Shown here piece by piece: positions 546 through 19,762 of a DNA stretch of 20,074 nt. The stretch spans positions 1 through 20,074 of the forward strand of contig CAMHPW010000001.1 of assembly GCA_946187095.1 (NCBI GenBank). Reading direction: 5' to 3'. Below the pieces are notes generated by a model that saw only the letters and a list, made by a program, of their open reading frames with translations, was not told the DNA's origin and made no database searches. Every line of letters begins with the position of its first letter. Within the stretch, counting starts at the first letter, position 1. The DNA is from an uncultured Clostridia bacterium. GTDB lineage: Bacteria; Bacillota; Clostridia; Oscillospirales; Acutalibacteraceae. The position numbers and the translations under genes are program-made.

Positions 546-1385
546 ATGCCTGAAAGAAAATTTGCCGTGATAGGTCATCCTATCGGACATACCATGTCAC
601 CGTTTATCCATAAAAGGCTCTTTGAACTTGCCCATGCAGACGGTGAATATGCTATTTTCGATGTATCACCTGATGAATTGTCCGTCAAAATCAAAACTCT
701 CGATGAACTGTCGGGATATAATATCACCATTCCGAATAAACAGGCGATCATCCCATATCTTGACAGACTCGACAAAAAAGCCGCTTTATACGGCTCTGTC
801 AATACCGTCAGAAACGGCTCGGAACGTGTCGGATTCACAACTGATCCGAATGGCTTTCTCAAAGCCCTTGCATATGCCGATATCAGTTTCAGCGGCAATA
901 TTGCCATCATAGGCTGCGGCGGTGCGGCAAGGACATTTCTCTATGAAGCCGCCCTTGCAGGCTGTCATATCACTCTCGCTGCCCGTGATATCGGCAAGGC
1001 TGATGTCCTTGCAAAAGAGGCTGTCAGTAAAATTCCCGATGCCGATATCAGCACCTGTCTGATATCCGATTTAAACGGAGAATTCGATTTGCTGGCAAAT
1101 GCTACACCTGTAGGAATGTATCCCCATGTCGATCACATTCCTGTAAGTGACAAGGCTCTTGCCAAATGCAAAAACGTCTTTGATGCGATATACAATCCGC
1201 TTGAGACAGTTCTGATACAGAAGGCTAAAGCTAACGGCTCGAATGCAGTGGGCGGAATGTCCATGCTTGTATGGCAGGCTGTAGCCGCCCATGAGATATG
1301 GGACGGAAGCACTTATGATATCAATGACATTGACCAATTGATTGAGGACAGTGCGGTTGAAATGAAAAAGATTTTTTATAAATGA
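546..1385 (+). CDS. aroE: Shikimate dehydrogenase (AroE)
   Basis: This gene encodes the NADPH-dependent reduction of 3-dehydroshikimate to shikimate, the fourth step of the cytoplasmic shikimate pathway. The product is 279 residues, normal for the family. The N-terminal substrate domain has GHPIGHTMSP (10-19, family SxS/SPxxH region), the catalytic Lys65 in NITIPNK, Asn86 in SVNT and Asp100 in TTDPNG. The NADP domain carries the GCGGAAR glycine-rich loop (123-129), and the C-terminal GGMSMLVWQ segment closes the active site. The ATG at 546 is chosen because AAGGAGAG sits at 531-538; the frame stays open upstream to a TTG at 438, but that adds hydrophobic residues not found in AroE. Its TGA (1383-1385) overlaps an upstream in-frame ATG of aroK, so the two genes are almost certainly co-transcribed. 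Confidence 0.96.
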   Translation: MPERKFAVIGHPIGHTMSPFIHKRLFELAHADGEYAIFDVSPDELSVKIKTLDELSGYNITIPNKQAIIPYLDRLDKKAALYGSVNTVRNGSERVGFTTDPNGFLKALAYADISFSGNIAIIGCGGAARTFLYEAALAGCHITLAARDIGKADVLAKEAVSKIPDADISTCLISDLNGEFDLLANATPVGMYPHVDHIPVSDKALAKCKNVFDAIYNPLETVLIQKAKANGSNAVGGMSMLVWQAVAAHEIWDGSTYDINDIDQLIEDSAVEMKKIFYK

Positions 1386-1396
1386 GGAATGGAAAA

Positions 1397-1903
1397 ATGA
1401 AAAAGAAAAATATCGTTTTATGCGGATTCATGGGCAGCGGCAAGAGTACCATCGGAAAACTGCTTTCACGCAAAATGGGCATGGCATTCGTTGACCTTGA
1501 CGCTTATATAGAGAAAAAGGAAAGTAAATCCGTTTCACAGATATTTGCCGACAGCGGAGAGGACTATTTCCGACAGCTTGAAAGAGATGCCGTAAAGGAA
1601 TTGGCATATAAAAAAAGCATAATCCTTGCGACAGGCGGCGGCACTCTGACATTTCATGAAAATGTTGCTGTTCTCAAAAATGCGGATAATAAAATCATTT
1701 TGCTGGATTTGCCCGTAGAAGTCGTTTCAAAGCGTCTGAAAGGCGATACCAAACGCCCTCTTTTGAATCGTCCCGACAAGGAGCAAGTCATGCGTGAACT
1801 GTATGAAAAGCGTCTGCCGCTTTACAGGAATGCGGCGGATATTGTCGTGAATGCGTCCAACTCTCCCATGCAGGTCTGCATGGAAATCATGGCAAATCTT
1901 TAA
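1397..1903 (+). CDS. aroK: Shikimate kinase (AroK)
   Basis: This gene encodes the ATP-dependent phosphorylation of shikimate to shikimate 3-phosphate, the step after AroE. The 168-residue product is a typical small P-loop kinase: Walker A GFMGSGKST (10-18), shikimate-binding DLD (33-35) and Arg59 in YFRQLE, the GGG loop at 80-82, and the lid with TKRPLL near residue 118-123. The start is taken as ATG 1397, which has GAGGA eight bases upstream and gives the usual MKKKNIVL opening. An in-frame ATG at 1382 overlaps the aroE stop but has no ribosome binding site. Translational coupling with aroE is likely. No obvious terminator follows before the aroF promoter. Confidence 0.96.
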   Translation: MKKKNIVLCGFMGSGKSTIGKLLSRKMGMAFVDLDAYIEKKESKSVSQIFADSGEDYFRQLERDAVKELAYKKSIILATGGGTLTFHENVAVLKNADNKIILLDLPVEVVSKRLKGDTKRPLLNRPDKEQVMRELYEKRLPLYRNAADIVVNASNSPMQVCMEIMANL

Positions 1904-1933
1904 CGCAACGCTTTAAAGTGATAAAATTTCTAC

Positions 1934-1962
1934 TTGACAAATCGGAAAAATAGTATTATCAT
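1934..1962 (+). promoter_or_regulatory. Promoter for the aroF leader
   Basis: A perfect -35 box TTGACA (1934-1939) is followed after 17 bases by TATCAT (1957-1962). Transcription would start near 1969, about 30 bases ahead of the leader peptide start, which is the layout of an attenuator-controlled gene. Confidence 0.75.
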
Positions 1963-2000
1963 TCTGTTTGTAAAAATAATTTCAGAAAGGAAATGTTACC

Positions 2001-2120
2001 GTGAAAACTTTGTCTGCACGATTTTTCAATAGCTTCCGCTCATGGTATTTTACATGGGCAAGTCATTTGTGCAGTCATGAAAAAGCGGTCATTCCTTGTT
2101 ATCAGTCCGTGTGTATTTAG
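2001..2120 (+). CDS. Aromatic-rich leader peptide of the aroF attenuator
   Basis: A 39-codon frame opens with GTG at 2001, nine bases after an AAAGGA ribosome binding site (1986-1991), and ends with TAG at 2118-2120. Its centre reads FFNSFRSWYFTW, so 7 of 12 residues (codons 8-19) are Phe, Trp or Tyr. The frame lies between a strong promoter and a terminator that precedes a DAHP synthase gene, exactly where a regulatory leader peptide would be. It is probably not a functional protein: ribosome stalling at the aromatic codons would report low charged tRNA-Phe, -Trp or -Tyr. The aromatic cluster ends about 20 codons before the stop, unlike the short enterobacterial trp and phe leaders. Coding status is inferred from codon content and context. 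A competing ATG at 1993 yields only three codons. Confidence 0.8.
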   Translation: MKTLSARFFNSFRSWYFTWASHLCSHEKAVIPCYQSVCI

Positions 2121-2161
2121 ATATATATACATACTGAATTTGTTTATCCGACGGAATCCGC
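2085..2161 (+). promoter_or_regulatory. Candidate antiterminator pairing of the aroF attenuator
   Basis: GCGG (2085-2088) plus ATTCC (2091-2095) are complementary to GGAAT (2153-2157) plus CCGC (2158-2161), giving 9 base pairs with a 2-base bulge. This pairing would occupy the 5' arm and loop of the downstream terminator and prevent its formation. In turn CCGCT (2036-2040) can pair with AGCGG (2084-2088), a possible protector stem that would be blocked by a ribosome stalled at the Trp/Tyr/Phe codons (2043-2057). Pairings were found by eye, not by folding software. Confidence 0.55.
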
Positions 2162-2184
2162 AGAGGGTTCCGTCTTTTTATTTT
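2150..2184 (+). terminator. Attenuator terminator upstream of aroF
   Basis: GACGGAATCC (2150-2159) pairs with GGGTTCCGTC (2165-2174), ten pairs including one G-T, around a five-base loop. It is followed directly by TTTTTATTTT (2175-2184). The hairpin ends about 35 bases before the aroF start and after the leader peptide stop, so it must be read through for aroF to be expressed. Confidence 0.88.
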
Positions 2185-2210
2185 ATCAAAAATTTTTGGA
2201 GGTCATTGAA

Positions 2211-3239
2211 ATGATTATCGTACTGAAACCGAATGCCGAAAAGGAAAAAATCCTGCTTTTGAAAAATGCTTTGGAAGAAAACTACAAAGTTACCGTCAAT
2301 ACTTGGGTAGGCGTGGAATCGACCGTACTCGGACTGATAGGCGATACCACTCACATTGATGAAGACTGGGTATATGCTCAGGATGTCGTTGAAAACGTCA
2401 AGCGTGTGCAGGAGCCGTATAAAAAGGCGAACCGTAAATTTCACCCCGACAATACCGTGATAGAACTCCCCACAGGTCAGAAGATCGGTGACGGCAGTCT
2501 CTGCATTATGGCAGGTCCCTGTTCCGTTGAAACGGAGGAACAAATCAATTACGTTGCACAGAGAGTGAAAGAAGCAGGTGCGACTTTTTTAAGAGGCGGT
2601 GCATTCAAGCCCAGAACGTCACCCTACTCATTTCAGGGCTTGAAATCCGAAGGCTTGGATTTGCTCAAAGGTGCAAGAAAAGTGACAGGCTTGCCTATCG
2701 TGACGGAAATCATGCGTGTATCGCATATCGATATGTTTGAAAGTGTGGATATTATACAGGTCGGTGCAAGGAATATGCAGAATTTTGAACTTCTCAAAGA
2801 ACTCGGCAAAATCGACAAGCCGATTTTATTGAAAAGAGGTCTTTCCAGTACGATAGAAGAATGGCTGATGAGTGCGGAATACATCATGGCAGGCGGCAAT
2901 AACAAAGTTATCTTGTGCGAGAGAGGTATCAGGACTTATGAAACCGCTACAAGAAATACACTTGACTTGTCGGCAGTGCCTGTTATCAAGAAAAAGTCAC
3001 ATTTGCCCGTAATCGTCGATCCGAGCCATGCCACAGGAAAATCTTCACTTGTCGAGCAGATGTCGCTTGCAGCGGTTGCGGCAGGGGCTGATGGCTTGAT
3101 GATAGAAGTACACAACGATCCCAAACATGCCCTTTCGGACGGTGCACAGTCATTGACTCCCGAACAATTTGATATCGTTGCCAAAAAAGTTTTTGCCCTC
3201 AAAAAAGCCTACGATGAAATAATGAGGAATGAGGAGTGA
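2211..3239 (+). CDS. aroF: DAHP synthase, class I-beta with N-terminal regulatory domain
   Basis: The enzyme condenses phosphoenolpyruvate and erythrose 4-phosphate to DAHP, the committed step of aromatic synthesis. The 342-residue product has an N-terminal ferredoxin-like domain (about 1-70), which in the Thermotoga-type enzymes binds Tyr or Phe for feedback inhibition, then a TIM barrel. Family motifs are AGPCSVE (101-107, metal Cys104), [16 protein letters not shown] (128-143), GARNMQNF (185-192), and DPSHATGK (270-277, metal His273). The ATG at 2211 follows GGAGG (2198-2202) by eight bases. Expression is probably governed by the upstream attenuator, so this step would have both transcriptional and allosteric control. 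The last codons and stop are made from a GAGGAAT-type repeat that runs on into the intergenic region. The symbol could equally be aroG or aroA(G); the function is secure. Confidence 0.95.
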
Positions 3240-3246
3240 GGAATTA
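3222..3246 (+). repeat. Short GAGGAAT-type tandem repeat overlapping the aroF stop
   Basis: The sequence consists of three imperfect seven-base units of the type TGAGGAA/G, and it supplies the final codons (RNEE) and TGA of aroF. A close relative lies at 7163-7190. Confidence 0.55.
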
Positions 3247-3254
3247 ACAATAAC

Positions 3255-3270
3255 ATGAAGTTGACTTCAT
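3255..3270 (+). repeat. Perfect short inverted repeat after aroF
   Basis: ATGAAGT (3255-3261) and ACTTCAT (3264-3270) form a 7-pair hairpin with a two-base gap, 15 bases after the aroF stop. There is only a broken T stretch afterwards, so it may be a weak terminator or mRNA end. The remaining 3271-3420 is AT-rich and holds only a small direct repeat (ACTATGCA twice near 3373-3391); I see no gene in it. Confidence 0.4.
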
Positions 3271-3420
3271 ATTTGATATTTCTATTGCAGAATAATGCAG
3301 GGTTTGCAGGGTTATACTATTCCTTTCATGAAAAAAAAGAAAAATCAAAATTTATATAAAAAGTATGTATCAACTATGCAAACTATGCATTATGCGAATA
3401 AAGAATTATAAAATGTATTG

Positions 3421-3449
3421 TTGACGATACATTCAAAATATTATATAAT
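3421..3449 (+). promoter_or_regulatory. Promoter of tyrA-aroB
   Basis: TTGACG (3421-3426) is followed after exactly 17 bases by a perfect TATAAT (3444-3449). The start site would be near 3456, leaving a leader of under 30 bases before tyrA, with no room for an attenuator like that of aroF. Confidence 0.85.
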
Positions 3450-3483
3450 ATCTTCAAATAGGCGAAAGTGAGGATTTATATCA

Positions 3484-4314
3484 ATGAATGTAGTAGTTGT
3501 GGGATTGGGAATTATCGGCGGTTCAATGGCAAAGGCTGTTTCGGAATATACGGACTGCCATGTCATAGGCATCAACAGAAGTGACGAGGCACTTCAGAAG
3601 GCAATGGAATGCGGTGCAATAGATGAGATTGGCACATTGGATTCTCTTAAAAAAGCCGATTTGATTATATTGGGCGTATATCCCGAAGTGGCAGTCGAAT
3701 TTATCCGCAAAAATGCACACAGGATTCCGAAAGACTGCATTGTGACGGATACTTCGGGAATTAAGTCAAAGATATGCCCTGCACTGTCGGCAATCGCCGA
3801 TGAATACGGATTCACGTTCATAGGCTGTCACCCGATGGCTGGAAAAGAAAAAAACGGCTTTGACGTATCGGAAGCAACGCTTTTCAGGAATGCAAGCTGT
3901 ATTATATTGCCATGTAATGCACCTCAGGAAAAAGTTGACTTTTTATCGGACTTCATGATGAAATTAGGTTTCGGCAGGGTTGTCTATACCACGCCTGAAG
4001 AACATGACAGAATGATATCTTTCACATCACAGTTGCCCCATGTGATAGCCTGTTCGTATGTATTCAGCCCGTGCTGTCCGAATCACAAGGGCTTTTCGGC
4101 AGGCAGTTACAGAGATGTTTCAAGAGTGGCGAATATCAACGGGGTTTTATGGTCTGAATTGTTTATAGAGAATAAAGAGCCTTTACTTGCTGAAATAGAT
4201 ACGTTTATCGGCAATATGACGGAGATAAGAAATGCCATTGAAAAGGGCAGCAGGCAGGAATTGGCTGAGTTGCTGAATAAAGGAAAGGAAATAAAGGAGA
4301 TGTTGGGGGAATGA
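3484..4314 (+). CDS. tyrA: Prephenate dehydrogenase (TyrA)
   Basis: This gene encodes the NAD-dependent oxidative decarboxylation of prephenate to 4-hydroxyphenylpyruvate, the tyrosine-specific branch. The 276-residue product begins with a Rossmann nucleotide-binding fold (GLGIIGGSMAKA, 7-18). Further family motifs are GCHPMAGKEKNGF (about 115-127), which contains the prephenate-site His, and SQLPHV (about 182-187). There is no C-terminal ACT domain and no chorismate mutase fusion, so it is the short monofunctional form. An AGGA ribosome binding site lies nine bases before ATG 3484. Its TGA overlaps the aroB ATG (ATGA at 4311-4314), which points to coupled translation. Arogenate specificity cannot be excluded from sequence. 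Confidence 0.94.
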   Translation: MNVVVVGLGIIGGSMAKAVSEYTDCHVIGINRSDEALQKAMECGAIDEIGTLDSLKKADLIILGVYPEVAVEFIRKNAHRIPKDCIVTDTSGIKSKICPALSAIADEYGFTFIGCHPMAGKEKNGFDVSEATLFRNASCIILPCNAPQEKVDFLSDFMMKLGFGRVVYTTPEEHDRMISFTSQLPHVIACSYVFSPCCPNHKGFSAGSYRDVSRVANINGVLWSELFIENKEPLLAEIDTFIGNMTEIRNAIEKGSRQELAELLNKGKEIKEMLGE

Positions 4315-5360
4315 AAAAGGTTGAAGTGAAAACAGGCAGACCTTATGATATACTCATCGAACACGGTATTCTTGACAATGCAGGGGAACATATCAGACCG
4401 CTTACCAAAGCCATCAGAGCGGTTATTATCAGCGATACGAATGTTTCACCGATCTATTCCGACAGGGTGAAGGATTCTCTTGAAAAGAGCGGTTTTGAAA
4501 CGTCTGTATTTGTCTTTGAAGCGGGGGAGAGTTCCAAAAGGCTTTCCACGATAGAAAAGATGTATACACATCTTTTTGAAAATAATATCACAAGGACGGA
4601 TATCATAGTGGCATTGGGGGGCGGTGTCACAGGAGATATGGCAGGTTTTGCGGCGGCGACGTATTTAAGGGGAATCGACTTTGTACAGATTCCGACAAGT
4701 CTGCTGGCACAGGTGGATTCTTCCGTAGGCGGCAAAACCGCCGTTGATTTGCCGGCAGGTAAAAATTTAGTGGGTGCATTCTGGCAGCCGGTATTGGTTC
4801 TGATAGATCCCGATACTTTGCATACACTTCCCGGAAAGTTCTTCAAGGACGGCTTGGGAGAAGTCGTGAAATACGGCTGTATCAGGAGTGCAAGCCTTTT
4901 TGAAAGGCTTGAAAACGAAAATGCCAGAGATTTCATTGACGATATCGTTTTTGAATGCGTTTCGATAAAAAGAGATGTTGTGGAACATGATGAACGTGAC
5001 ACAGGGGAGAGGGCAATACTGAATTTCGGTCATACACTCGGTCATGCCCTTGAAAAGCTGAACGGCTATACGAATTTGACTCACGGTGAAGCGGTTGCGG
5101 CAGGTTCTGCTATTATTACACGCATTTCGGAACGTCACGGCTTGACGGCACAGGGTACGGCACAGCGTCTTGAAAATCTGCTGAAAAAATATGACTTGCC
5201 TGTAACGTCTGAATTTTCGCTGGCGGAGATAGTAAATGCCACTCGTGGTGATAAAAAGAGTACAGGCAAAAGCATCAAATTTGTTTTCCTGAAAGAGACA
5301 GGGGAATGTTTTGTACAAAAAATCAATACAGCGGATTTCGGTGAATTTTTCGGAGAGTGA
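4311..5360 (+). CDS. aroB: 3-Dehydroquinate synthase (AroB)
   Basis: This gene encodes the NAD- and metal-dependent cyclisation of DAHP to 3-dehydroquinate, the second shikimate pathway step and the one directly after AroF. The 349-residue product is full length. Visible motifs are ALGGGVTGDMAGFAAATY (101-118), the phosphate and substrate loop QIPTSLLAQVDSSVGGKTAV (126-145), Glu184 in DGLGEVVKYG, His241 and His245 in NFGHTLGHALE, and His258 in THGEAV; Glu184, His241 and His258 match the family metal ligands. The start overlaps the tyrA stop by four bases and has AAGGAGA about 14 bases upstream plus a GGGGGA stretch close to the ATG. It shares the tyrA promoter and ends at a strong bidirectional terminator. 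Confidence 0.96.
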   Translation: MKKVEVKTGRPYDILIEHGILDNAGEHIRPLTKAIRAVIISDTNVSPIYSDRVKDSLEKSGFETSVFVFEAGESSKRLSTIEKMYTHLFENNITRTDIIVALGGGVTGDMAGFAAATYLRGIDFVQIPTSLLAQVDSSVGGKTAVDLPAGKNLVGAFWQPVLVLIDPDTLHTLPGKFFKDGLGEVVKYGCIRSASLFERLENENARDFIDDIVFECVSIKRDVVEHDERDTGERAILNFGHTLGHALEKLNGYTNLTHGEAVAAGSAIITRISERHGLTAQGTAQRLENLLKKYDLPVTSEFSLAEIVNATRGDKKSTGKSIKFVFLKETGECFVQKINTADFGEFFGE

Positions 5361-5418: not shown

Positions 5419-6336
5419 TCAGCCGCCGAATTCTATCATCTTATTGATACATTTAACGGCTTTTTCGATGGTTTCAGAGGAGAGTTCTATGATCTCGCCG
5501 CCCTCGCCTTTGCAGCAGTCAAGAACGTCAATAAGAGTAGTTGCTTTCATGTTCTCGCAAATGAGAGATTTTGAAAGGAAATAGAATTTCTTGCCGGGAC
5601 ATTCATACTGGAGATGTTCGGCAATACTGTTTTCAGTGCCTATGATGAATTCCTTTTTATCGGACTTTTTGGCGTAATTCATGATACCTGCCGTTGAGCC
5701 TATATAATCGGCTAATTCTGTCACTTCAGGTCTGCATTCGGGGTGAACGAGCAGTTCTGCATTGGGGTGAAGTGCCTTGGCAGTTTCAGCGTGTTTTCTC
5801 GTGACAGCCGCATGAACGGGACAGCCGCCCTGCAGGAGCTTGATATTTTTATCGGGCAAGGACTTTGCCACGAATGCACCCAGATTGCAGTCGGGGATAA
5901 ATAAAATATTTTTATTTTCGATTTGCCTGACGATCTGAACGGCTGATGACGATGTGACACACACATCACATACGGTCTTTAATTCGGCAGTTGTATTGAT
6001 GTATGCTACTACTGTATAGTCGGGATATTGTGTTTTGATTTGTGAAATAATTTCTTTATCGAACTGTTCCGCCATGGGACAAGCCGCTATGGAATTGGAA
6101 AGAATGACGGTTTTTTCGGGGGACAGCATTTTGACGGTTTCCGCCATGAAGCGTACTCCGCACATTAAAACGGTTTTATTGGGGGCAGTTTTCGCCATTT
6201 TGCTCAGGGCATAGGAATCGCCCGTAAAATCGGCTATTTCAAGAATTTCCCTTGCCTGATAGCTGTGGGCAAGGATACAGATGTCCTTTTCTTTTTTCAG
6301 ACGAATGATTTCGTCCTGCACTTCTCTGATATTCAT
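5419..6336 (-). CDS. nadA: Quinolinate synthase (NadA)
   Basis: The enzyme joins iminoaspartate and dihydroxyacetone phosphate into quinolinate for de novo NAD synthesis, using a [4Fe-4S] cluster. From ATG 6336 the product is 305 residues, the size of the short bacterial and archaeal NadA type. The three cluster cysteines are visible as Cys86 in AACPMAE, Cys172 in GGCPVH and Cys260 in CENMK; their spacings (86 and 88) match the family. Other motifs are ILAHSYQ (21-27), IADFTGDSYALS (34-45) and HPECRPEV (198-205). The frame is open upstream to a TTG at 6390, but ATG 6336 has GGAAG eight bases before it and begins at the usual NadA N-terminus. The usual partners nadB and nadC are not adjacent. 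The gene is preceded by an operator-like cluster. Confidence 0.95.
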   Translation of the reverse strand: MNIREVQDEIIRLKKEKDICILAHSYQAREILEIADFTGDSYALSKMAKTAPNKTVLMCGVRFMAETVKMLSPEKTVILSNSIAACPMAEQFDKEIISQIKTQYPDYTVVAYINTTAELKTVCDVCVTSSSAVQIVRQIENKNILFIPDCNLGAFVAKSLPDKNIKLLQGGCPVHAAVTRKHAETAKALHPNAELLVHPECRPEVTELADYIGSTAGIMNYAKKSDKKEFIIGTENSIAEHLQYECPGKKFYFLSKSLICENMKATTLIDVLDCCKGEGGEIIELSSETIEKAVKCINKMIEFGG

Positions 6337-6362
6337 ATTGTTATCTTCCAATCTTTTAAAAA

Positions 6363-6402
6363 TTGTCAAGTTTAAAGGGAAATTTGACAAGTATACTTGA
6401 CA
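6363..6402 (-). promoter_or_regulatory. Operator-like cluster upstream of nadA
   Basis: Three copies of a TTGACAAG-type half-site lie within 40 bases: TTGTCAAG (6363-6370), TTGACAAG (6384-6391) and CTTGACA (6396-6402). The first two form an inverted pair. The last two overlap a perfect 12-base palindrome, CAAGTATACTTG (6388-6399), whose centre contains a TATACT that could act as a minus-strand -10 box. The arrangement suggests a repressor site for NAD-dependent control, for instance by a NiaR-type regulator, but the regulator identity is a guess. Confidence 0.45.
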
Positions 6403-10137: not shown

Positions 10138-12693
10138 ATGAATGCGGAAATATACTTTCCGAGAGAAGGAAAGTCTTTCGGACGTACTGCCGAAAAGAGT
10201 TTTGAAGATACGGTCAGAAAACTCAATGAAATAAATGTCAATATTATTTATAAGACGGAAGTGAATCTGACGGAAAAGAGTATTGCCGAGGCACTGAAAG
10301 TATCGGAGTCGGGCGATGAAAATATCGGGCTTATTATGATCGCCGATGTACTTTCCGAGGACAGTCCCGAAAAGGCAAAGGAATTCTTTGAAAAAATGGG
10401 CATACTGGGAAAAATCCGGCGTATTGAGGCTGAATATCTCGATCCGTTTGATGACGGCAGCCAGAAACAACATTCCGCAAAGCAGTCCGAAAAGAAAAAG
10501 AAAAGGAAAAAAGACAAAAATTCCGATGAGCCGATCGATATATCACAGAGTATCGTGACGATCGAAAATCGCCCTGTATACGCCTATGCCGTGGAGTATA
10601 ACAACAAGCTGCTTGTCATTCTGCCGAGATATGATGTGCTGAATATCGACTTCACAGCGGAATTGTACAGTGCAGCGAGTGCCGTTGCGAATCCGAGTTC
10701 CAAAGAGGCTTTCTGGAAAAGATTTATTCCCTGTGCAGGTGACGGACCGTTGGATGTTGTCAGAAAAATTATTTTGATCCTTGCAATATGTACTTTTGTG
10801 GTATCGTCATATATTCTGATACAGATGGTAATTGTCGAACCTGCCGCCAATGACGAGATCACGGACGGCATTAAGGAACTGTTGGTATCGACTACGGAAG
10901 GCGAACCCGATATCAATTCACCCAGAAAAGAGATATCCAAGCTGCCGACAGACGGCTCGGAAGGTGTCATATCCGATTTCACGCAGCTTCTCAAAGCCAA
11001 TCCCGATACGATAGGCTGGATCAATGTCCCCAATACGATTATCGATTTCGTTGTCGTGAAGCCGCAGGACGGTGTTGACAGTGAATATTATCTCCACAGG
11101 GATTTCTACGGAAATTACTCGAAATACGGTACGGTGTTCATGGATTACAGAAGTTCTCTTGATTCAAAGAATCTGATCATACACGGACATCATATGCATG
11201 ACGGAAGAATGTTTGCCGACCTTGCCAAGTACGTTGAAAGAGGAAACGGCTACGGCATCGATTTCTACAGGCAGACACCCGTATTTACGTTCAATACGAT
11301 CTATGAAAAGAGCAAATGGAAGATCATAGCATTCTTCAAGACGAATACACTGGAATCGCAGGGAGTGCCGTTCAATTATCTCAGAGGAGATTTTGTCAGT
11401 GATTATGATTTCCTTGACTTTGTCTATCATTTAAGAGTGCGTTCACTGGTGAACTGCCCTGTTGACATCAATGAAAATGATACGATCCTGACGCTTTCAA
11501 CGTGTTCGTATGACTTTGAGGATTTCAGGACGGTGATCGTGGCGAGAAAAGTCCGTGACGGTGAAACTGCCGATGTCGATGTTTCAAAGGCTGCGGAGAA
11601 TCCGTCACCGCTCTATCCTGATGTATGGTATCAGACTTACGGCGGCACAAAGCCGAATGTAACATCCTTCCAGAATGCCTATAATAACAATGAGATCAGC
11701 TGGTATGACGGCGAAAAGCAGTGGTCTCTGAATGACGATGAAGAATTGGCAAGAGTGCTGAATGAAGGCAAGAAGAATGCCGAAAATATGCTCAGGGCAT
11801 TCGTTGAAGAAATAGAATATGCCTATGAACAGCAGATGACGGTCAATGAACTTGTTGATCAATATATCGAGGAATTCAAAAATGCAGAGAGTGCGGCGGA
11901 AGTGAACAGACTCTATAATGAAGCCGTCACCGAGATCAGAAAGATCAAGACAAAGGATCAGGTCGATGCAGAAAGTTCCCTTGCAGCCGAGAACAGCCGC
12001 AGGGAAGCGGAAAAAGAAGCAAGCATACAGGCTCAGAATGAGCTGAAGGCGAAAAAGCAGTCTGCCGTATCGGAGATCAGAAGCTCTATTGCAGGAAATG
12101 AATACAGGATCAAGCAGGCTGATGAAGTCACAAAAATAATGGAAACGTATTCCAAGCAGATCAATGCATCCAAGGATATCGATGAAATAGAGGAACTCAA
12201 GAAAAAATGTATCGAAGAGCTTTCGAAGATCAGGACGGCTGAGGAAATGAATGAGGAAGAAAGCAAGGCTGCAGAAGAGGCTTCCAAGAAAGCGGCAGAG
12301 GAAGCATCAAAGAAGGCTGCCGAAGAAGCAAGCAGAAAAGAGGAAGAAAGAAAAGCTGCCGAAAGGTCTGCACAGGAAGTGGAAAATGCAAGAAGTGCAG
12401 CCGTTGAGGAAATTGAATCCTATGTCGATCCCAATGAACATCCTGCTGCCAGGACAAAGCTGCAGACGATCATCAGCAGTGCAAAGGCTACGATCATGGA
12501 TGAAAGAATACTGACGACAGTGAGTGCGATCGAAAGCATGGTATCAAGCACCAAAAAGCAGATCGATGACTGTATCGCTGAATTGGAAGTTTCGGAAGAA
12601 CAGTCTTCGGAAGAACAGTCTTCGGAAGAACAGTCTTCGGAAGAATCTGAAACAACAAGTATTCCTCCTGAAGAGACCAGTCCCGAAGGATGA
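10138..12693 (+). CDS. srtB: Class B sortase with cytoplasmic N-terminal region and long helical C-terminal extension
   Basis: Sortases cut cell-wall sorting signals and join the protein to peptidoglycan or a pilin. The 851-residue product is several times the usual 200-300. Order: an N-terminal region (1-205) with a Lys-rich stretch (119-127) and no signal peptide; one transmembrane segment (about 211-234); a sortase B domain (about 275-475) with His351 in HGHHMHDGRMF, Cys456 in LTLSTCSYDF and Arg464 in DFRTVIVAR; then a charged helical region (about 530-818) with related three-helix-like modules and three KAAEEASK units (710-733); last a Ser/Glu/Pro tail with SEEQS repeats. AGGAG precedes ATG 10138 by nine bases and thiI ends 15 bases upstream. 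All catalytic residues are present, so it should be active. The likely substrate is the large LPTG protein encoded by the converging gene at 14195-19762. Confidence 0.88.
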   Translation: MNAEIYFPREGKSFGRTAEKSFEDTVRKLNEINVNIIYKTEVNLTEKSIAEALKVSESGDENIGLIMIADVLSEDSPEKAKEFFEKMGILGKIRRIEAEYLDPFDDGSQKQHSAKQSEKKKKRKKDKNSDEPIDISQSIVTIENRPVYAYAVEYNNKLLVILPRYDVLNIDFTAELYSAASAVANPSSKEAFWKRFIPCAGDGPLDVVRKIILILAICTFVVSSYILIQMVIVEPAANDEITDGIKELLVSTTEGEPDINSPRKEISKLPTDGSEGVISDFTQLLKANPDTIGWINVPNTIIDFVVVKPQDGVDSEYYLHRDFYGNYSKYGTVFMDYRSSLDSKNLIIHGHHMHDGRMFADLAKYVERGNGYGIDFYRQTPVFTFNTIYEKSKWKIIAFFKTNTLESQGVPFNYLRGDFVSDYDFLDFVYHLRVRSLVNCPVDINENDTILTLSTCSYDFEDFRTVIVARKVRDGETADVDVSKAAENPSPLYPDVWYQTYGGTKPNVTSFQNAYNNNEISWYDGEKQWSLNDDEELARVLNEGKKNAENMLRAFVEEIEYAYEQQMTVNELVDQYIEEFKNAESAAEVNRLYNEAVTEIRKIKTKDQVDAESSLAAENSRREAEKEASIQAQNELKAKKQSAVSEIRSSIAGNEYRIKQADEVTKIMETYSKQINASKDIDEIEELKKKCIEELSKIRTAEEMNEEESKAAEEASKKAAEEASKKAAEEASRKEEERKAAERSAQEVENARSAAVEEIESYVDPNEHPAARTKLQTIISSAKATIMDERILTTVSAIESMVSSTKKQIDDCIAELEVSEEQSSEEQSSEEQSSEESETTSIPPEETSPEG
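12591..12645 (+). repeat. Perfect 15-base tandem repeat in the sortase tail
   Basis: TTCGGAAGAACAGTC occurs three times without a mismatch (12591-12605, 12606-12620, 12621-12635) and a partial fourth copy ends at 12645. It encodes the SEEQS repeats. The unit is a multiple of three, so copy-number change would keep the frame. Confidence 0.95.
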
Positions 12694-14171: not shown

Positions 14172-14218
14172 AAAAAAGAGGAGAGCGGAGAGGCTTATGC
14201 CTCTTCACTCTCTTTTTT
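14172..14218. terminator. Bidirectional terminator between the antiporter and the surface protein gene
   Basis: AGAGGC (14189-14194) pairs with GCCTCT (14199-14204) around TTAT, extended by GAGAG (14181-14185) with CTCTC (14208-14212) across a 3x3 internal loop. An A run at 14172-14177 and a T run at 14213-14218 flank it, giving a T tail on either strand. The minus-strand surface protein stop codon lies in the loop, so the hairpin overlaps that gene's end. Confidence 0.8.
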
Positions 14219-17200
14219 ATGATGTGACAGAATGGCTGCGGCGGCAGCCGAACCCACCATGATCAGCAGAAAAACGGGAATGTGCATCTTTATGCCTGTC
14301 GGCAGTATGCCGTCAAGTGTGTTGGTGACGGCAAGTGTTATATCGCTGTCAAGAACAAAGGTCTTTTCATTGACTGCTTCTGCAGCGGCAGTTCCCAATC
14401 GGAAGGAAGCAGTATAATTTTCACTGTTTTCCGATATGGTGACGTTTTTTCCTCTCGGCAGGGAAATGGTACAGGTATCGTTATGCTTCAGGGTGAATGT
14501 TCCGCCTGAACGGAGTTTGACTGCCTGTGAAATTCCGTTTTTTGACCACGCATATTCATCTTCGGCAGAGGCGTTTTCAACTGTCAGGGTGAATGTGAAT
14601 TCCTGACCGATACTGCCGAAATTTCCCTTCACGGTCTTGGTGACGGTCAGCTTTGCAGGCGGCGTATTGGGAACGGTGAGGGAATAGGTGATGCTGTCTG
14701 TTCCTTCCACTGAAAGAAAGCTTTCATGTTCGGCACTGTCAATGACAAAATTGCCTGATCCCGAAATGGTAAAGATAATATCTGTATCAAGGGGCTGATA
14801 GTCTTTAGGAGGAGCAGTTTCGGTAAGATAATATCTGCCCGGAGGAAGTATGCCGTCAGAAAGCGGAACGATCCCGTCTGAATCGGTAACAAGATCACTG
14901 AAGCCAATGATGGGGGAGGTGTCCTTTACATAGCCGCCGATTCCCTGAACGCCTCGATAAAGGGCAAAATGGGCATTGCTGAGCGGCTGATGAGTCAGAC
15001 CGTCCACTTTGGTCACTCTGAGAGTATATGGCTTGTTGAAAAAGTCGATATATGCCGTGATACCGTCATTCAGGTTTTTCCATGACTGCCATTGGGATTC
15101 ATTTCCGCTGAGAGTGACATTTCCGTTGTCATCAATGGAAAATGTCGCTGAATTCGGCAAGCCGATATAGCCTGACGGAGGGGTGATCTCCGTGATCGTA
15201 TAATCGATATTATGCGTAAAGTCATAGATCACAGCTATCCTGCCGTCAGAATCGGAAGTGAATGTGGCAAGTTCGGTATCTCCCTGTCTGAAAACAAATA
15301 CACCGTTGGCAAGGGGTTCTCTTGTATACATATCATACAGGGTGAGTACGATGCCGCCCTCACGGACATTGGTGATCGTATTGGTTTTCATATTATCATG
15401 GGTTTGTTCGTCATATCTGACGGTATAGGAGAATGTATCGGAAATTCCTCTTTTGGAAACGATACCGACTTTTATTTTATCCTGATCATTCAGTCTGGTG
15501 ATACTGTCATAGCCTGTGACGGTTTCACCGTCAGGGGCAAGAACGGGATTTTCAATTTTTACTTCATATATGGAATAATCATTTAATTCCGTTCCGGCTC
15601 TGAGCGAGTCGAAATAATAGCGTACAGAAGTGTCGGGATGGCTGATCTGTCTGACAGTACCTGCAACGAGTTCATTTTTGTAATAAACCGCTGTATAGAC
15701 AGGATCATGCGAAGCGGCATAAAGGGTGTCAGTCCAGATCTTTTGGGCTTCCATGCCGCAGCCACGCTGATTTTTGATCAGCATGGACGGTGAATTGTTT
15801 TCTGTTACCTGTCCCATATTTTCGGGACTGCCCTCTGCAGCGAAATAGCTGTCACCGACTTTTTCATAGGAGATCAATTTGTAGCCAAGCGGGATTTCAT
15901 AGTCTCTTTCCGTCACAATGAATTTTGTACCGACAGGAAGATTGGGAACATGAACGGTATAGCCCGCAGGTATTTTGGAAATGGCACCGTTCATGGATGT
16001 ATCAAAAGTAACGGATTCCTTTTCGGAGGCTGTTAAAGCTGAGATATCGGCAATTTTGATCCCGACAGAAGCGAATGTCTGGGAATCGATATCCCATTTG
16101 CAGAGATAGCCTTCGGGGTTGGTGACATGATACTGATACATATTGGCAAGTGTGGGAGTATCTTCTGAATTTTTGGACAGCGATAAACGGAAACTGAAGG
16201 CAGTGGGATCATCTTCGGCGGTCAGTTCATGACCTGACTGATCGTACAGGACTTTTTTGAAACTCAGTGTACGGAGTGCATTGGGCTTCATATGGTTGTC
16301 AAAAACGACAGACGGTCTGCTTTTGATACTCTGCCAGCCCGAATCGAAGGATCGGCGGCTGGTATTGCCGTCAACGGAAGTTCCTGTGATATTGGCACCG
16401 TTTACATGAACACTGTCATATACATCCGTATTGATACCGCATTCGATCATGCGGTATTCCGTTGTTTTTTCGGGGAAATTGATATTGGCACTCATGCCGG
16501 GATTCAAAAAGTATACGGATTCATAGTGAGCCGTACTGTCGGGGGGAGTATAGTCTGACGTATAGCCGACTTTATGAGTAGAATCCTGATAAGTGACATT
16601 GGAAACGGAATCTGTATTTTTCAGCAGATGAATTTCATCTTTCTCATCTTTGTACCATATCTGGAAGGGATATTTCACAAGATGGAAGTCCATATCATCC
16701 GCACCGCTCACCTGTTTGGTAAGCATGACTTTGGAGGGGCTGGAGTGGCTCAGGTTGAACCTCATATGCAGATTGGAAGCACCTGCACCACGCTCCATAT
16801 AAAATAATTTCATTGTATGGGCAGAATGATCCTTGAAGATATTTTCGCCGTCCTTGAAATACTCTGCAAGATAGGCATCGATTTCAGCCTGTGTGGCAGT
16901 GGGATTGCGTTTTTGATAGTTTGACTCAAAAATTTCACGCAGGGTATAATGATTTTTTTCAACCCAAACATCACCTGTCGAGAAGTTGACACTTCCCGCA
17001 AGGGCGGAATGGATACCGCCAAGGTCGATCACAAGTTCATTGTCGACATAGAGCCAGAAGTCATCGTCACCTGTGAATTCAAAGATAATGTCATGTCCCC
17101 AGTTATCCTTGCCGTCAGGTGTCTGTATGAAATTCGCTTCCATTTCCATGCCGTTGTGATAGTTGGGATTCTTGCCGACAGTATGGAGGCGTTCATATTT

Positions 17201-19762
17201 TCGGGGATCGTCATCCGATAAAAGTCCGATACCGGCTTGTCCGGGAACGGCAACTGCACCATACAGATTTTCGGGATTTTCCTTTGAATACTCAGTGGGG
17301 GTAATGATGTCATACGGAAAGAACTGACCATGCTGAAGGGTAGTTTTGGAAGAATTTTCCGTAGTGCCAAGCTCTTTGTATACGGTAAAATTGCTTGTCA
17401 GATCACCGTTTTCGTTATAAAGAGTGGCGAAATTCTGACAACTGTCAAATTCAAAATAGCCGCTTTCCTTGTAAATGCTTTCTATAAAAAGATGATTGAC
17501 TTCAGTAAGATGATTGCCGCCGTTTTCGCCGTTATAAAGCTCAGAAAAATCCCTGCCTTCGATGGTTGTGGGATAGCCGTTCTCATTGAGCTGAGTGGAA
17601 AGCAGACCTTTTGTCGCAAAAGTCTTGTAATTGGTGTCTGTCGTTCCGAGAATGGCATTCTGGTCAGTCGCATCGGGAAAGTCTATCATCTTCATTTTGA
17701 TACCAAATTCATTGTTGTCAATGGTATCGATTTTTGTAAGAGTGGGAGTCGCTTTTTCGACTACGGCAAAGTAATAGGTTTCCGCTTTGGAACGGGGGGC
17801 GGAAATGATCCTGCCGTTTTCGTCATCGCTTTTCAGACCGGCATAGGAATAATACAGATCATCCCATGCAATGATATCAGTATAATATTCGCCCTCACAC
17901 CTGCCGGGCATATTGATGCCTATTTTATGATCGGAAAGCACCTGACCGTCTTTTAATTGCGGGGCGATATACTTTCTTGAATAGGGGTTATAGAGCTCAT
18001 AATAATATTTTGGTGAGCCGTCATCATATTGGTATTCAATGAATTCCCACTGCATTGTATTGATACGGTTGCCTACCCACATGATATTGTCGCCACGTTC
18101 ATAGCAGGGGTACAGAGTGCCGTCATGATCGACTGCATAGAAATCATATCTCTTTTTTTCATCATTCCAGACACGGGTGTAGACAATTACCATTGTTTTG
18201 CCGGCAACTTCCGAAACGCTTGTTTTATCCGCTGAATAGCAGACATAATCGTTATCTGCAAGACCTGACATTTTTGTCAGGGACAGCCACTGATTGCTAT
18301 CCTTCATATCGGTATCTGCCAGAGAAAAGCTGCTTCCGTCAAAGACGATACTTTTGTCCTGACAGGAAAGCATGATATTGCTGCCGTTTGAGATCAGTGA
18401 GAGCGGTGCGGCATTCTGTATATCATCCGTCAATGCAATATGATCGCCGCTGAAACTGATATATTTTGTCACACCGTTCACATTGGCGGAAAGTGTGTAC
18501 ATATTTTCTCTTACCGAATGGAATGTCCACATGGCGATATCGCAGTCCTGAGCAACATACAAAATTTTGCTGCCCCTTTCTGTGCGGACAACAAGGGATG
18601 TCATATCCACTGAATTATTTTCCGTATCCGACATGAGACCGTAGCCAAGCGTACCGCCCGAATATCGCATCAGACCGTAAGTTTTGCCGTTGAGACCATA
18701 CACATCATCGGGGTATCGGAAAGTATCAGCATAGAATATTTTGATATGCGTATTGTTATTTTCATTTTTATCATAATATCGGATACCCTTGCCGCTGTTG
18801 GAATACTGAAGATACATATTGCCGCTGTTCTTTAAAATAAAAGAATTATCTGCGGCATTGGGCGTGATTTCAAGAAGATCGGCGGCTGTACTGTTCAGTT
18901 CCGCAAATCTTTTGTCTGCTTGTGGAGTGTGCAGATATTTTTTGACTCCGTTGACATAGGTATACAGCTCATATCCGTTTGCTGTGTTTTCAAAATACCA
19001 TACTGCCGCCTCGGAAATATCTGCTGTCTGAATAAAGGCATGATTGTTGTTCAGAGCGGAGGAAATATAGCTTGGAGCGGAAACGGAACCTGTCAGGAGA
19101 CAGAACCCTGCCGCAGCTCTTGAACCTGTCAGTGCATCGGCAGAGGTCACCTGTTCAGGATCGGGAAAGAGATACGGTTCAGGGACATCAACAATAGCAT
19201 ATACGCTGAATCCCTCTGCGTAAAAGCTGATCTTTCCGTCTTTGACTGTAAAATTATTCACCTGTTCATATCTGCCGTCATCGGTAATGTGCCAGAGTCC
19301 TGCCACACGACCGGAAAAAATTTTCGGATCAACGATCTCTACCAGGATGGGATTGTCTTTGATAGGCTGGAAATCCCCCTTTTTGCCGGTGATGCTGATA
19401 TCATAGGCTGCCAGAACAGATGTTTCATCTGTATTGCCGCCGGTGTTCGTGACAGGGCGGAAATTTCCGGAGTACTGCTCGGTTACGTCAACAGCTTCGG
19501 CTGAAGCATTTTCAGGCATGACACCATTGAGGGTGATATATTTTTCATTATTTTTTTCATCAGGATACAGTTCCAGGCTCTGTTCAAGATATTTTTCCGA
19601 GACGGCACTGACCGGAACGGATGCTGCAGGGATACATGACAATGCGATCATAACGGCACATATGATACAAAGTGTGCATCTTATTTTCTCAAAGCCTGTT
19701 ACAGCAATAAAGGAGAACATATATCCTTCGGTCGCAAAAACATTTTTACGGATCGTTTTCAT
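14195..19762 (-). CDS. Giant secreted surface protein: fibro-slime domain, SpaA-like repeats, LPTG cell-wall anchor
   Basis: The 1855-residue product is built for export and wall attachment. Order: a long signal peptide, hydrophobic at about 29-48, with a possible cut after VSA (51-53); residues 60-200 unassigned; three related aromatic-rich modules (about 215-670); a fibro-slime/PA14-like domain (about 690-1005) centred on FEFTGDDDFWLYVDNELVID (894-913); several SpaA/Cna-B-like beta domains (about 1010-1815) with candidate isopeptide Lys (VTKVDG, 1583-1588) and Glu (YTITEITPPSGY, YYLTETAPP); and ILPTGI (1819-1824), a membrane segment (1827-1845) and the charged tail HHKKESEEA. ATG 19762 has AAAGGA about 12 bases upstream; ATG 19720 is a possible second start with a closer AAGGA. 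The likely role is adhesion or pilus-like display. Ligand unknown. The class B sortase at 10138-12693 is the probable anchoring enzyme. Confidence 0.88.
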   Translation of the reverse strand: MKTIRKNVFATEGYMFSFIAVTGFEKIRCTLCIICAVMIALSCIPAASVPVSAVSEKYLEQSLELYPDEKNNEKYITLNGVMPENASAEAVDVTEQYSGNFRPVTNTGGNTDETSVLAAYDISITGKKGDFQPIKDNPILVEIVDPKIFSGRVAGLWHITDDGRYEQVNNFTVKDGKISFYAEGFSVYAIVDVPEPYLFPDPEQVTSADALTGSRAAAGFCLLTGSVSAPSYISSALNNNHAFIQTADISEAAVWYFENTANGYELYTYVNGVKKYLHTPQADKRFAELNSTAADLLEITPNAADNSFILKNSGNMYLQYSNSGKGIRYYDKNENNNTHIKIFYADTFRYPDDVYGLNGKTYGLMRYSGGTLGYGLMSDTENNSVDMTSLVVRTERGSKILYVAQDCDIAMWTFHSVRENMYTLSANVNGVTKYISFSGDHIALTDDIQNAAPLSLISNGSNIMLSCQDKSIVFDGSSFSLADTDMKDSNQWLSLTKMSGLADNDYVCYSADKTSVSEVAGKTMVIVYTRVWNDEKKRYDFYAVDHDGTLYPCYERGDNIMWVGNRINTMQWEFIEYQYDDGSPKYYYELYNPYSRKYIAPQLKDGQVLSDHKIGINMPGRCEGEYYTDIIAWDDLYYSYAGLKSDDENGRIISAPRSKAETYYFAVVEKATPTLTKIDTIDNNEFGIKMKMIDFPDATDQNAILGTTDTNYKTFATKGLLSTQLNENGYPTTIEGRDFSELYNGENGGNHLTEVNHLFIESIYKESGYFEFDSCQNFATLYNENGDLTSNFTVYKELGTTENSSKTTLQHGQFFPYDIITPTEYSKENPENLYGAVAVPGQAGIGLLSDDDPRKYERLHTVGKNPNYHNGMEMEANFIQTPDGKDNWGHDIIFEFTGDDDFWLYVDNELVIDLGGIHSALAGSVNFSTGDVWVEKNHYTLREIFESNYQKRNPTATQAEIDAYLAEYFKDGENIFKDHSAHTMKLFYMERGAGASNLHMRFNLSHSSPSKVMLTKQVSGADDMDFHLVKYPFQIWYKDEKDEIHLLKNTDSVSNVTYQDSTHKVGYTSDYTPPDSTAHYESVYFLNPGMSANINFPEKTTEYRMIECGINTDVYDSVHVNGANITGTSVDGNTSRRSFDSGWQSIKSRPSVVFDNHMKPNALRTLSFKKVLYDQSGHELTAEDDPTAFSFRLSLSKNSEDTPTLANMYQYHVTNPEGYLCKWDIDSQTFASVGIKIADISALTASEKESVTFDTSMNGAISKIPAGYTVHVPNLPVGTKFIVTERDYEIPLGYKLISYEKVGDSYFAAEGSPENMGQVTENNSPSMLIKNQRGCGMEAQKIWTDTLYAASHDPVYTAVYYKNELVAGTVRQISHPDTSVRYYFDSLRAGTELNDYSIYEVKIENPVLAPDGETVTGYDSITRLNDQDKIKVGIVSKRGISDTFSYTVRYDEQTHDNMKTNTITNVREGGIVLTLYDMYTREPLANGVFVFRQGDTELATFTSDSDGRIAVIYDFTHNIDYTITEITPPSGYIGLPNSATFSIDDNGNVTLSGNESQWQSWKNLNDGITAYIDFFNKPYTLRVTKVDGLTHQPLSNAHFALYRGVQGIGGYVKDTSPIIGFSDLVTDSDGIVPLSDGILPPGRYYLTETAPPKDYQPLDTDIIFTISGSGNFVIDSAEHESFLSVEGTDSITYSLTVPNTPPAKLTVTKTVKGNFGSIGQEFTFTLTVENASAEDEYAWSKNGISQAVKLRSGGTFTLKHNDTCTISLPRGKNVTISENSENYTASFRLGTAAAEAVNEKTFVLDSDITLAVTNTLDGILPTGIKMHIPVFLLIMVGSAAAAAILSHHKKESEEA

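Follow-up and report, generated by a model that had tools for sequence, protein, structure and literature searches.

The window, that is, the whole stretch of DNA that was analyzed, spans 20,074 nucleotides from the genome of an uncultured Clostridia bacterium and carries, in this order, aroE, aroK, a leader region, aroF, a prephenate dehydrogenase gene and aroB. The aroF gene (2211..3239, plus strand), the predicted target of control, encodes a DAHP synthase that scores 488.6 bits against the NCBIfam model PRK08673 (cut-off 335) and 398.6 bits against TIGR01361 (cut-off 267.75). NCBIfam supports the gene names for the proteins tested; downstream it gives prephenate dehydrogenase (3484-4314), aroB (4311-5360) and NadA (5419-6390), and of all proteins in the window only DAHP synthase, aroB and NadA exceed an NCBIfam model cut-off. 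The prephenate dehydrogenase gene is preceded by a promoter-like site of its own (TTGACG-17-TATAAT, 3421-3449, 11/12 matches), so that this gene and aroB may escape the attenuator described below. The more distant genes, as judged by eye, include one for a sortase-like protein (10138-12693) with a long repetitive C-terminal part rich in Lys, Ala and Glu and, on the minus strand, one for a putative surface protein of 1855 aa (14195-19762). The host genome measures 1.69 Mb in 316 contigs and is 83% complete, and the named assemblies nearest to it are labeled 'uncultured Ruminococcus sp.' At this level of completeness it yields one DAHP synthase match, the gene at 2211-3239.

The leader element lies on the plus strand between aroK, which ends at 1903, and aroF. 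It begins with a sigma-70-type promoter (1934..1962; -35 TTGACA, -10 TATCAT, spacer 17) that matches at 11/12 positions. The promoter proposed in the sequence-only reading is therefore present, and yet the match alone is weak evidence, since the 2.1 kb scanned contain 6 promoter-like sites and shuffles contain 5.0. TTGACA also occurs 5' of the leader in 30 of 46 alignment rows, and several other rows end before that place. A Shine-Dalgarno-like AGAAAGGA (1984..1991) precedes the leader peptide ORF MKTLSARFFNSFRSWYFTWASHLCSHEKAVIPCYQSVCI (2001..2120 including the stop codon), which has a GTG start and 39 codons. Codons 8-19, FFNSFRSWYFTW (2022..2057), are the putative aromatic control codons; both the frame and its aromatic stretch were part of the sequence-only reading and are found as it described them.

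Several segments of this RNA can pair. The P0 5' arm, here called segment 1 or the protector, lies in the Shine-Dalgarno and start region of the leader (1987..2002), overlaps the Shine-Dalgarno-like sequence, and forms 13 pairs with 2085-2097; this duplex was read from locus L001, which is the window at 711-4736. The P1 5' arm GCACGA (2016..2021, codons Ala-Arg) belongs to a strongly conserved GCACGATTT box and pairs with the 3' arm TTGTGC (2067..2072). Within P1, the two arms of P2, around TCATG (2038..2044) and CATGG (2053..2059), pair with each other. The P1/P2 hairpin thus encloses the aromatic codons and is soon followed by segment 2, GCGGTCATTCCTT (2085..2097), whose partner is either 1987-2002 (P0) or, for GCGG..ATTCC at 2085-2095, the complementary GGAATCCGC at 2153-2161 (antiterminator). 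Because P0 and the antiterminator use the same bases of segment 2, the two pairings are mutually exclusive. Segments 3 and 4 form an intrinsic terminator hairpin of 10 pairs (2150..2174), in which 2153-2161 is the antiterminator partner, and a T tail, TTTTTATTTT (2175..2184), follows, so the terminator that had been proposed before aroF is present as well. When folded, the leader RNA gives z = -6.2, and 0 of 200 shuffles are as stable. The stretch with P0, P1 and P2 folded alone gives z -3.3 against shuffles and the terminator stretch z -4.8; the antiterminator stretch (2071-2170 of the window), folded alone, is no better than shuffles (z -1.0, 40/200 as stable).

The element is conserved within the genus. 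A DAHP synthase match was found in 53 of 61 genus genomes, host included, and readable upstream DNA was obtained for 49 loci, four of the 53 (G011, G033, G039, G056) having given no readable start. Loci L002-L006 appear to come from the same genomes as L083, L091, L105, L117 and L082 and are excluded from the genus counts. Such a leader is present in 44 of the 49 loci, one of them cut by a contig end (L086), and is absent from five (L090, L091, L093, L114, L100). Among these, L100 has before its aroF a terminator-like hairpin together with a leader-like remnant that is frame-broken and aromatic-poor, possibly a decaying attenuator. Under a strict criterion of at least 6 F/W/Y in 16 residues with a Shine-Dalgarno sequence, 38/49 genus loci qualify, compared with 64/980 shuffled sequences; here, as for the terminator criterion and the spacer test below, shuffles are first-order Markov resamplings. 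A terminator-like hairpin follows all 43 of the 43 complete genus leaders, a count without a shuffle control. In addition, a covariance model detects the element once per genome in 43 of the 61 genus genomes, each time beside a DAHP synthase locus, and at no gene other than aroF. Since 41 of these 43 matches are the model's own training sequences, the weight of this result lies on the absence of further copies per genome.

The swap and structure tests cover 41 of the 44 genus leaders, L086 (contig end), L126 (box missed by the pattern) and L097 (by hand) being omitted. Alignment fails for the rapidly changing P0 arms, and segment 1, taken as -22 to +5 of the leader start, was therefore tested against segment 2 by swapping partners between loci. 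The own duplex averages -15.96 kcal/mol, compared with -12.08 for swapped partners (sd 0.45; best of 2000 permutations -13.52; 41 loci), and it beats the median foreign partner in 39/41 genus loci. After thinning to 29 loci of <75% identity, the own value still lies beyond all 5000 permutations, and in the control with reversed segment 2 the values are -11.40 and -10.83 (p 0.07). Measured by the longest uninterrupted Watson-Crick run, the effect is modest, with runs of at least 6 in 26/41 own pairs and in 31% of foreign pairs. The covarying protector is not the one that had been claimed. CCGCT (2036-2040) is indeed complementary to AGCGG (2084-2088) in the window, but only 4/41 loci have CCGC at the corresponding columns, and this pairing was rejected as a general element; instead, it is the leader's own Shine-Dalgarno and start region (1987-2002) that covaries with 2085-2097. 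A wider region before and into P2 also pairs better with the segment 2 of the same locus (-8.51, compared with -7.47 when swapped, p 0.0015; -8.55 and -7.46, with 0/2000 permutations, once the four closest loci are dropped), and some contact of this region with segment 2 is conceivable.

For segment 2 and segment 3, the own duplexes in the genus average -11.30, compared with -10.43 when swapped (sd 0.27, p 0.001) and -7.57 with reversed segment 2; after thinning, p is 0.025. Covariation of the putative antiterminator inside the genus thus appears weak. Of the antiterminator that had been proposed, the complementarity and the swap result stand, while the weakness within the genus and the unremarkable local fold tell against it. 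In the P1/P2 hairpin, 94.1% of cells are paired (P1 91.5%, P2 96.0%), compared with 30-51% when the partner is slid. Its covariation score exceeds 500/500 shuffles, and neither doubly changed pairs nor pair types are in excess over shuffles (155 and 152 of 500). RNAalifold on a MAFFT alignment of the genus leaders recovers P2 alone. By script placement, the stop codon lies 17-68 bases past the P1 3' arm in 37/41 loci, the placements at L095, L096, L098, L101 and L106 being among the doubtful ones. Overall, the comparison of relatives that had been suggested as a check bears out covariation of P0 and, by score, of P1/P2 and the retention of aromatic density, but is weak on the antiterminator within the genus.

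The leader reading frame is probably real. Over the 16 codons from the first Phe, 48% of residues are aromatic in the leader frame, compared with 17% and 25% in the other two, and the leader frame is the most aromatic one in 41/42 genus loci; because leaders were picked by aromatic content, this enrichment arises partly by construction. The same codons contain no stops in the leader frame, by choice of ORF, and the +2 frame is stopped in 36 loci. Moreover, the start codon and the conserved box share one frame in all 42 of the 42 genus loci in which the box was located. The synonymous/nonsynonymous pattern, which had been named beforehand as a refuting test, did not favor the reading: genus leaders show no synonymous excess, and the codon positions in mid-peptide change at nearly the same rate (0.35, 0.44 and 0.40). 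Such an excess is not, as far as is known, a defining feature of ribosome-mediated attenuators. In six loci (L099, L102, L109, L118, L119, L123), the stretch ends in another frame, with FWYG or FWYE replacing FAW; here the RNA is still alike despite the frame switch, and new aromatic codons are present. In four others (L103, L107, L124, L125), a frame change after the cluster yields no new Trp. What is kept in the leader is the frame, the aromatic density and the RNA pairing, and our reading is that the tail is conserved as RNA and the middle is kept rich in aromatic codons.

Genus leaders hold 4-11 aromatic residues per 16 codons. Phe, Tyr and Trp account for 14.7%, 7.2% and 3.1% of residues in 42 genus leaders, with all three present in 37, and 17.2%, 10.7% and 1.1% in 117 leaders outside the genus, with all three present in 32; these percentages are inflated by selection of leaders for aromatic content. 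Trp amounts to 0.9% of the window's own aroF product and stands out in genus leaders only. The proposal that the leader senses all three amino acids therefore fits the genus, in which sensing of Trp is plausible, but the 1.1% outside it makes Phe and Tyr the general case.

A further regularity concerns codon choice. The Arg codon directly before Phe in the leaders, at 2019-2021 in the window, is CGA in 71/92 cases, although CGA accounts for only 59 of 2025 Arg codons (2.9%) in the 146 DAHP synthase genes of these loci, repeats included. It is found at this place in 38/42 leaders of the genus, 21/23 of other genera of the family and 12/27 of other families, compared with 5/56, 1/37 and 3/111, respectively, for the other Arg codons of the same leaders. 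No p-value is attached to these counts because related loci are not independent. In the genus, CGA can be explained by P1 pairing (CGA:UCG); support for P1 outside the genus is weak.

Leaders of this kind also occur outside the genus. Of 75 named loci there (L007-L081), which include Ruminococcus sp. zg-924, Clostridium weizhouense and C. thailandense, 45 satisfy the strict criterion, compared with 84/1500 shuffles. In the order, 195 of 297 genomes have a DAHP synthase match, and 92 loci from 18 numbered families were examined: 28 are the best among the matches listed, 60 more were hand-picked among the matches listed, mostly one per genus, and the last 4 come from genomes with weak covariance-model matches. 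This set overlaps the genomes of L007-L081, with identical leaders at L145/L007 and L162/L023. A leader was found in 75/92 loci and 46/920 shuffles, and a leader with terminator in 73/92 by script, or 72/92 after a locus with a T-box (L211) was removed by hand, compared with 9/920 shuffles; some likely leaders (L157, L167) are missed by the criterion. For 111 leaders outside the genus, from which identical peptides had been removed, swapping gives z = -10.2 for segments 1 and 2 (own better than the median in 86/111) and z = -9.4 for segments 2 and 3 (80/111). The reversed-segment controls, at -3.0 and -3.7, are not neutral here, which probably stems from shared base composition. P1 is weakly supported outside the genus, with -6.79 for own and -6.00 for swapped partners (sd 0.32; best permutation -7.14; 22 loci).

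In 300 family genomes, the covariance model has 9 matches, 4 of this genus and 5 weak. One weak match (G294, E 1.7e-4) sits slightly less than 100 bases 5' of its aroF; three others lie away from the aroF matches of their genomes, and one is in a genome without an aroF match. Five loci (L066, L069, L070, L073, L189) have very short leaders, 18-22 codons in length, with the aromatic run close to the end, an arrangement nearer to the textbook one. Several other families (e.g., L079, L194, L197) share a different recurrent core, GCTGAATAC...GGTAAGGCT (AEY...GKA), which looks nucleotide-conserved and may be the P1 equivalent in those families.

The effect of a translating ribosome on these pairings was explored with a model in which the ribosome footprint masks RNA and the pairing of the terminator 5' arm with any upstream RNA is scored; kinetics and polymerase pausing are ignored. 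The mean probability of such pairing is 0.45 for free RNA; it rises to 0.70 with a ribosome at the aromatic codons and falls to 0.31 when the ribosome is on tail codons and to 0.28 when it is at the stop. For the window, it is 0.88 at codons 2-24, 0.19-0.57 at codons 26-40 and 0.21 for free RNA. The state with the ribosome at the aromatic codons exceeds free RNA in 35/41 loci and is not favored over it in the other 6. With the native spacer the value is 0.67, compared with 0.46 when the spacer is shuffled, and the native spacer is higher in 38/41 loci.

Taken together, the conserved aromatic leader, the terminator and the mutually exclusive pairings in the genus, along with the same design in the order-level sample, make it likely that a ribosome-mediated transcription attenuator stands in front of aroF, as the sequence-only reading had held. 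Features of the attenuator class found here are a leader rich in end-product codons, a terminator between leader and first gene, a protector that competes with the antiterminator, and an antiterminator, weak inside the genus, that competes with the terminator. When the leader is untranslated, or its ribosome has finished, P0 would form between segments 1 and 2, segment 3 would be left free, and the terminator would stop transcription. When Phe- or Tyr-tRNA, and in the genus probably Trp-tRNA, is poorly charged, a ribosome would stall on codons 8-19, hold P1 open and keep segment 1 off segment 2; initiation by a following ribosome on segment 1 may contribute. The freed segment 2 would then capture segment 3, and RNA polymerase would read into aroF. 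With ample charged tRNA, the ribosome would instead move on into the tail of about 20 codons and cover segment 2, allowing the terminator to form. The mid-peptide cluster followed by a tail of this length, already remarked on as unlike textbook leaders, fits the model because the ribosome must travel on to cover segment 2. We infer that one stalled ribosome would open P0; for a ribosome on codon 8, the P0 5' arm would lie outside the usual footprint. Furthermore, since segment 1 is the initiation site, the off-state would also hide the leader start, and we propose that the leader is thereby self-limiting (superattenuation).

The involvement of the initiation site also suggests a variant in which initiation on the leader is the main input. 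Any initiating ribosome would then open P0, the aromatic codons would only tune how long the ribosome dwells, and the switch would also report general initiation capacity. Gating by translation agrees with the placement of segment 1, which coincides with the initiation region in the genus and, as an average in the swap test, also beyond it; the frame-specific enrichment in aromatic codons, however, is left unaccounted for by gating alone, and we regard this variant as unlikely, if worth keeping in mind. Stalling could otherwise be a property of the peptide itself. In TnaC, peptide-mediated ribosome arrest responds to tryptophan, and a nascent peptide that halts its ribosome when an aromatic amino acid is sensed, independently of tRNA charging, would suit the good conservation, within the genus, of an Arg-Phe pair and of several other residues that are not aromatic (ARF..., SC...). 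Yet the conserved non-aromatic codons form the P1 arms, most peptide positions vary without synonymous bias, at least 6 loci change frame after the cluster but keep a similar RNA, and leaders from the rest of the order are more alike in aromatic density than in sequence. Arrest by the nascent peptide is thus improbable.

It is slightly more improbable still that the RNA of P0, P1 and P2 senses an aromatic compound directly, as a metabolite-binding riboswitch with an incidental reading frame. Although the strong structure of the leader (z -6.2) and the strongly conserved box would suit such a riboswitch, aromatic codons are enriched in one frame (partly by construction), the start is in frame with the box in every one of the 42 loci, the RNA model barely extends past the genus while aromatic leaders do, and no Rfam family matches. 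Finally, with aroK ending about 250 bases 5' of it, the hairpin might be an ordinary terminator of the upstream transcript next to a chance aromatic ORF. This explanation is scarcely credible, because a promoter-like site lies between aroK and the terminator and because leader, pairings and terminator are conserved, the order-level combination occurring in 72/92 loci but in 9/920 shuffles. The ribosome-mediated attenuator therefore remains the preferred reading. A broader form of it is more tentative: an order-wide attenuator family might read initiation and aromatic stalling by one RNA switch, with the leader's own ribosome-binding site as protector, an off-state that also shuts leader translation, and CGA before Phe as a pacing or pause site, kept either for slow decoding or for CGAUUU as an RNA signal.

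The absence of a T-box core from this locus, noted earlier from the sequence, agrees with the Rfam 15 scan, in which no family, T-box, Phe_leader and Trp_leader included, reaches threshold in the window; a permissive scan gives 7 matches, all far under gathering scores. T-boxes do occur elsewhere in the same genome, with six matches, three of them above the family cut-off, that precede trpE, a trpB-like gene, tyrS, alaS, thrS and a cysE/cysS pair. The trpE and trpB-like genes were identified by family search (trpB-like under the family cut-off) and the others by eye. Because T-boxes precede trpE, the trpB-like gene and tyrS (L131, L133, L130, respectively) in the genome that carries this leader, the aromatic pathway seems to be served by two tRNA-sensing systems. 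A T-box precedes aroF itself in the relatives L026 and L211; the other 38 loci scanned, most of which fail the leader criterion, gave no match to an Rfam family.

These observations indicate how the entry step of aromatic amino acid synthesis is probably controlled in many Clostridia, largely of rumen and gut, judging by named relatives, where a T-box would be the usual guess. They also line up leader peptides in front of a single gene as an evolutionary series that includes two T-box loci and along which the replacement of one tRNA-sensing system by another can be traced. In addition, they offer two testable oddities, namely that the start site of the leader doubles as its protector and that a rare codon is conserved ahead of Phe. 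In contrast to a T-box, charging would here be read by a ribosome and not by the RNA.

The closest parallels are other leader-peptide attenuators. The Phe_leader and Trp_leader attenuators (pheL, trpL) of Gammaproteobacteria work by the logic of leader peptide, protector, antiterminator and terminator. The element before aroF resembles them in this logic, but its protector lies around the start of the leader, its control codons sit in the middle of a peptide with a long tail, its first gene is another one, and it has no Rfam match. An attenuator at aroR-aroF of Corynebacterium glutamicum was reportedly described by Neshat and colleagues in 2014. A leader peptide with Phe-Tyr-Phe is reported to precede the DAHP synthase gene there, and ribosome stalling is said to raise transcription under Phe limitation (PMC11802643, PMC4046766). 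The likeness, an aromatic-codon leader 5' of a DAHP synthase gene, is one of description; C. glutamicum is an Actinobacterium for which three consecutive aromatic residues are named, compared with 4-11 in 16 codons in the genus here. The uORFC-13-1 motif of Acholeplasma precedes the same gene, aroF, and is likewise compared by description only. It has a predicted uORF with at least one Phe codon, a promoter, a ribosome-binding site and an adjoining apparent intrinsic terminator, and it is termed a candidate by its authors, with 24 representatives from one genus and environmental sequences (PMC8632094). Within the Firmicutes, leader-peptide attenuators are reported for hisZ/hisS* (PMC2965389, PMC4833913) and for S. 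aureus ilv-leu (PMC5794164). Like the present element, they occur beside T-boxes in this phylum, but they respond to histidine or branched-chain amino acids, whereas the aromatic entry step is concerned here. Among the papers listed by a search of freely accessible journals, no title, abstract opening or consulted passage reports aromatic leader peptides at DAHP synthase in Clostridia, or their spread. Judged by that search, the kind of attenuator is known, and this member, its architecture and its range appear to be new.
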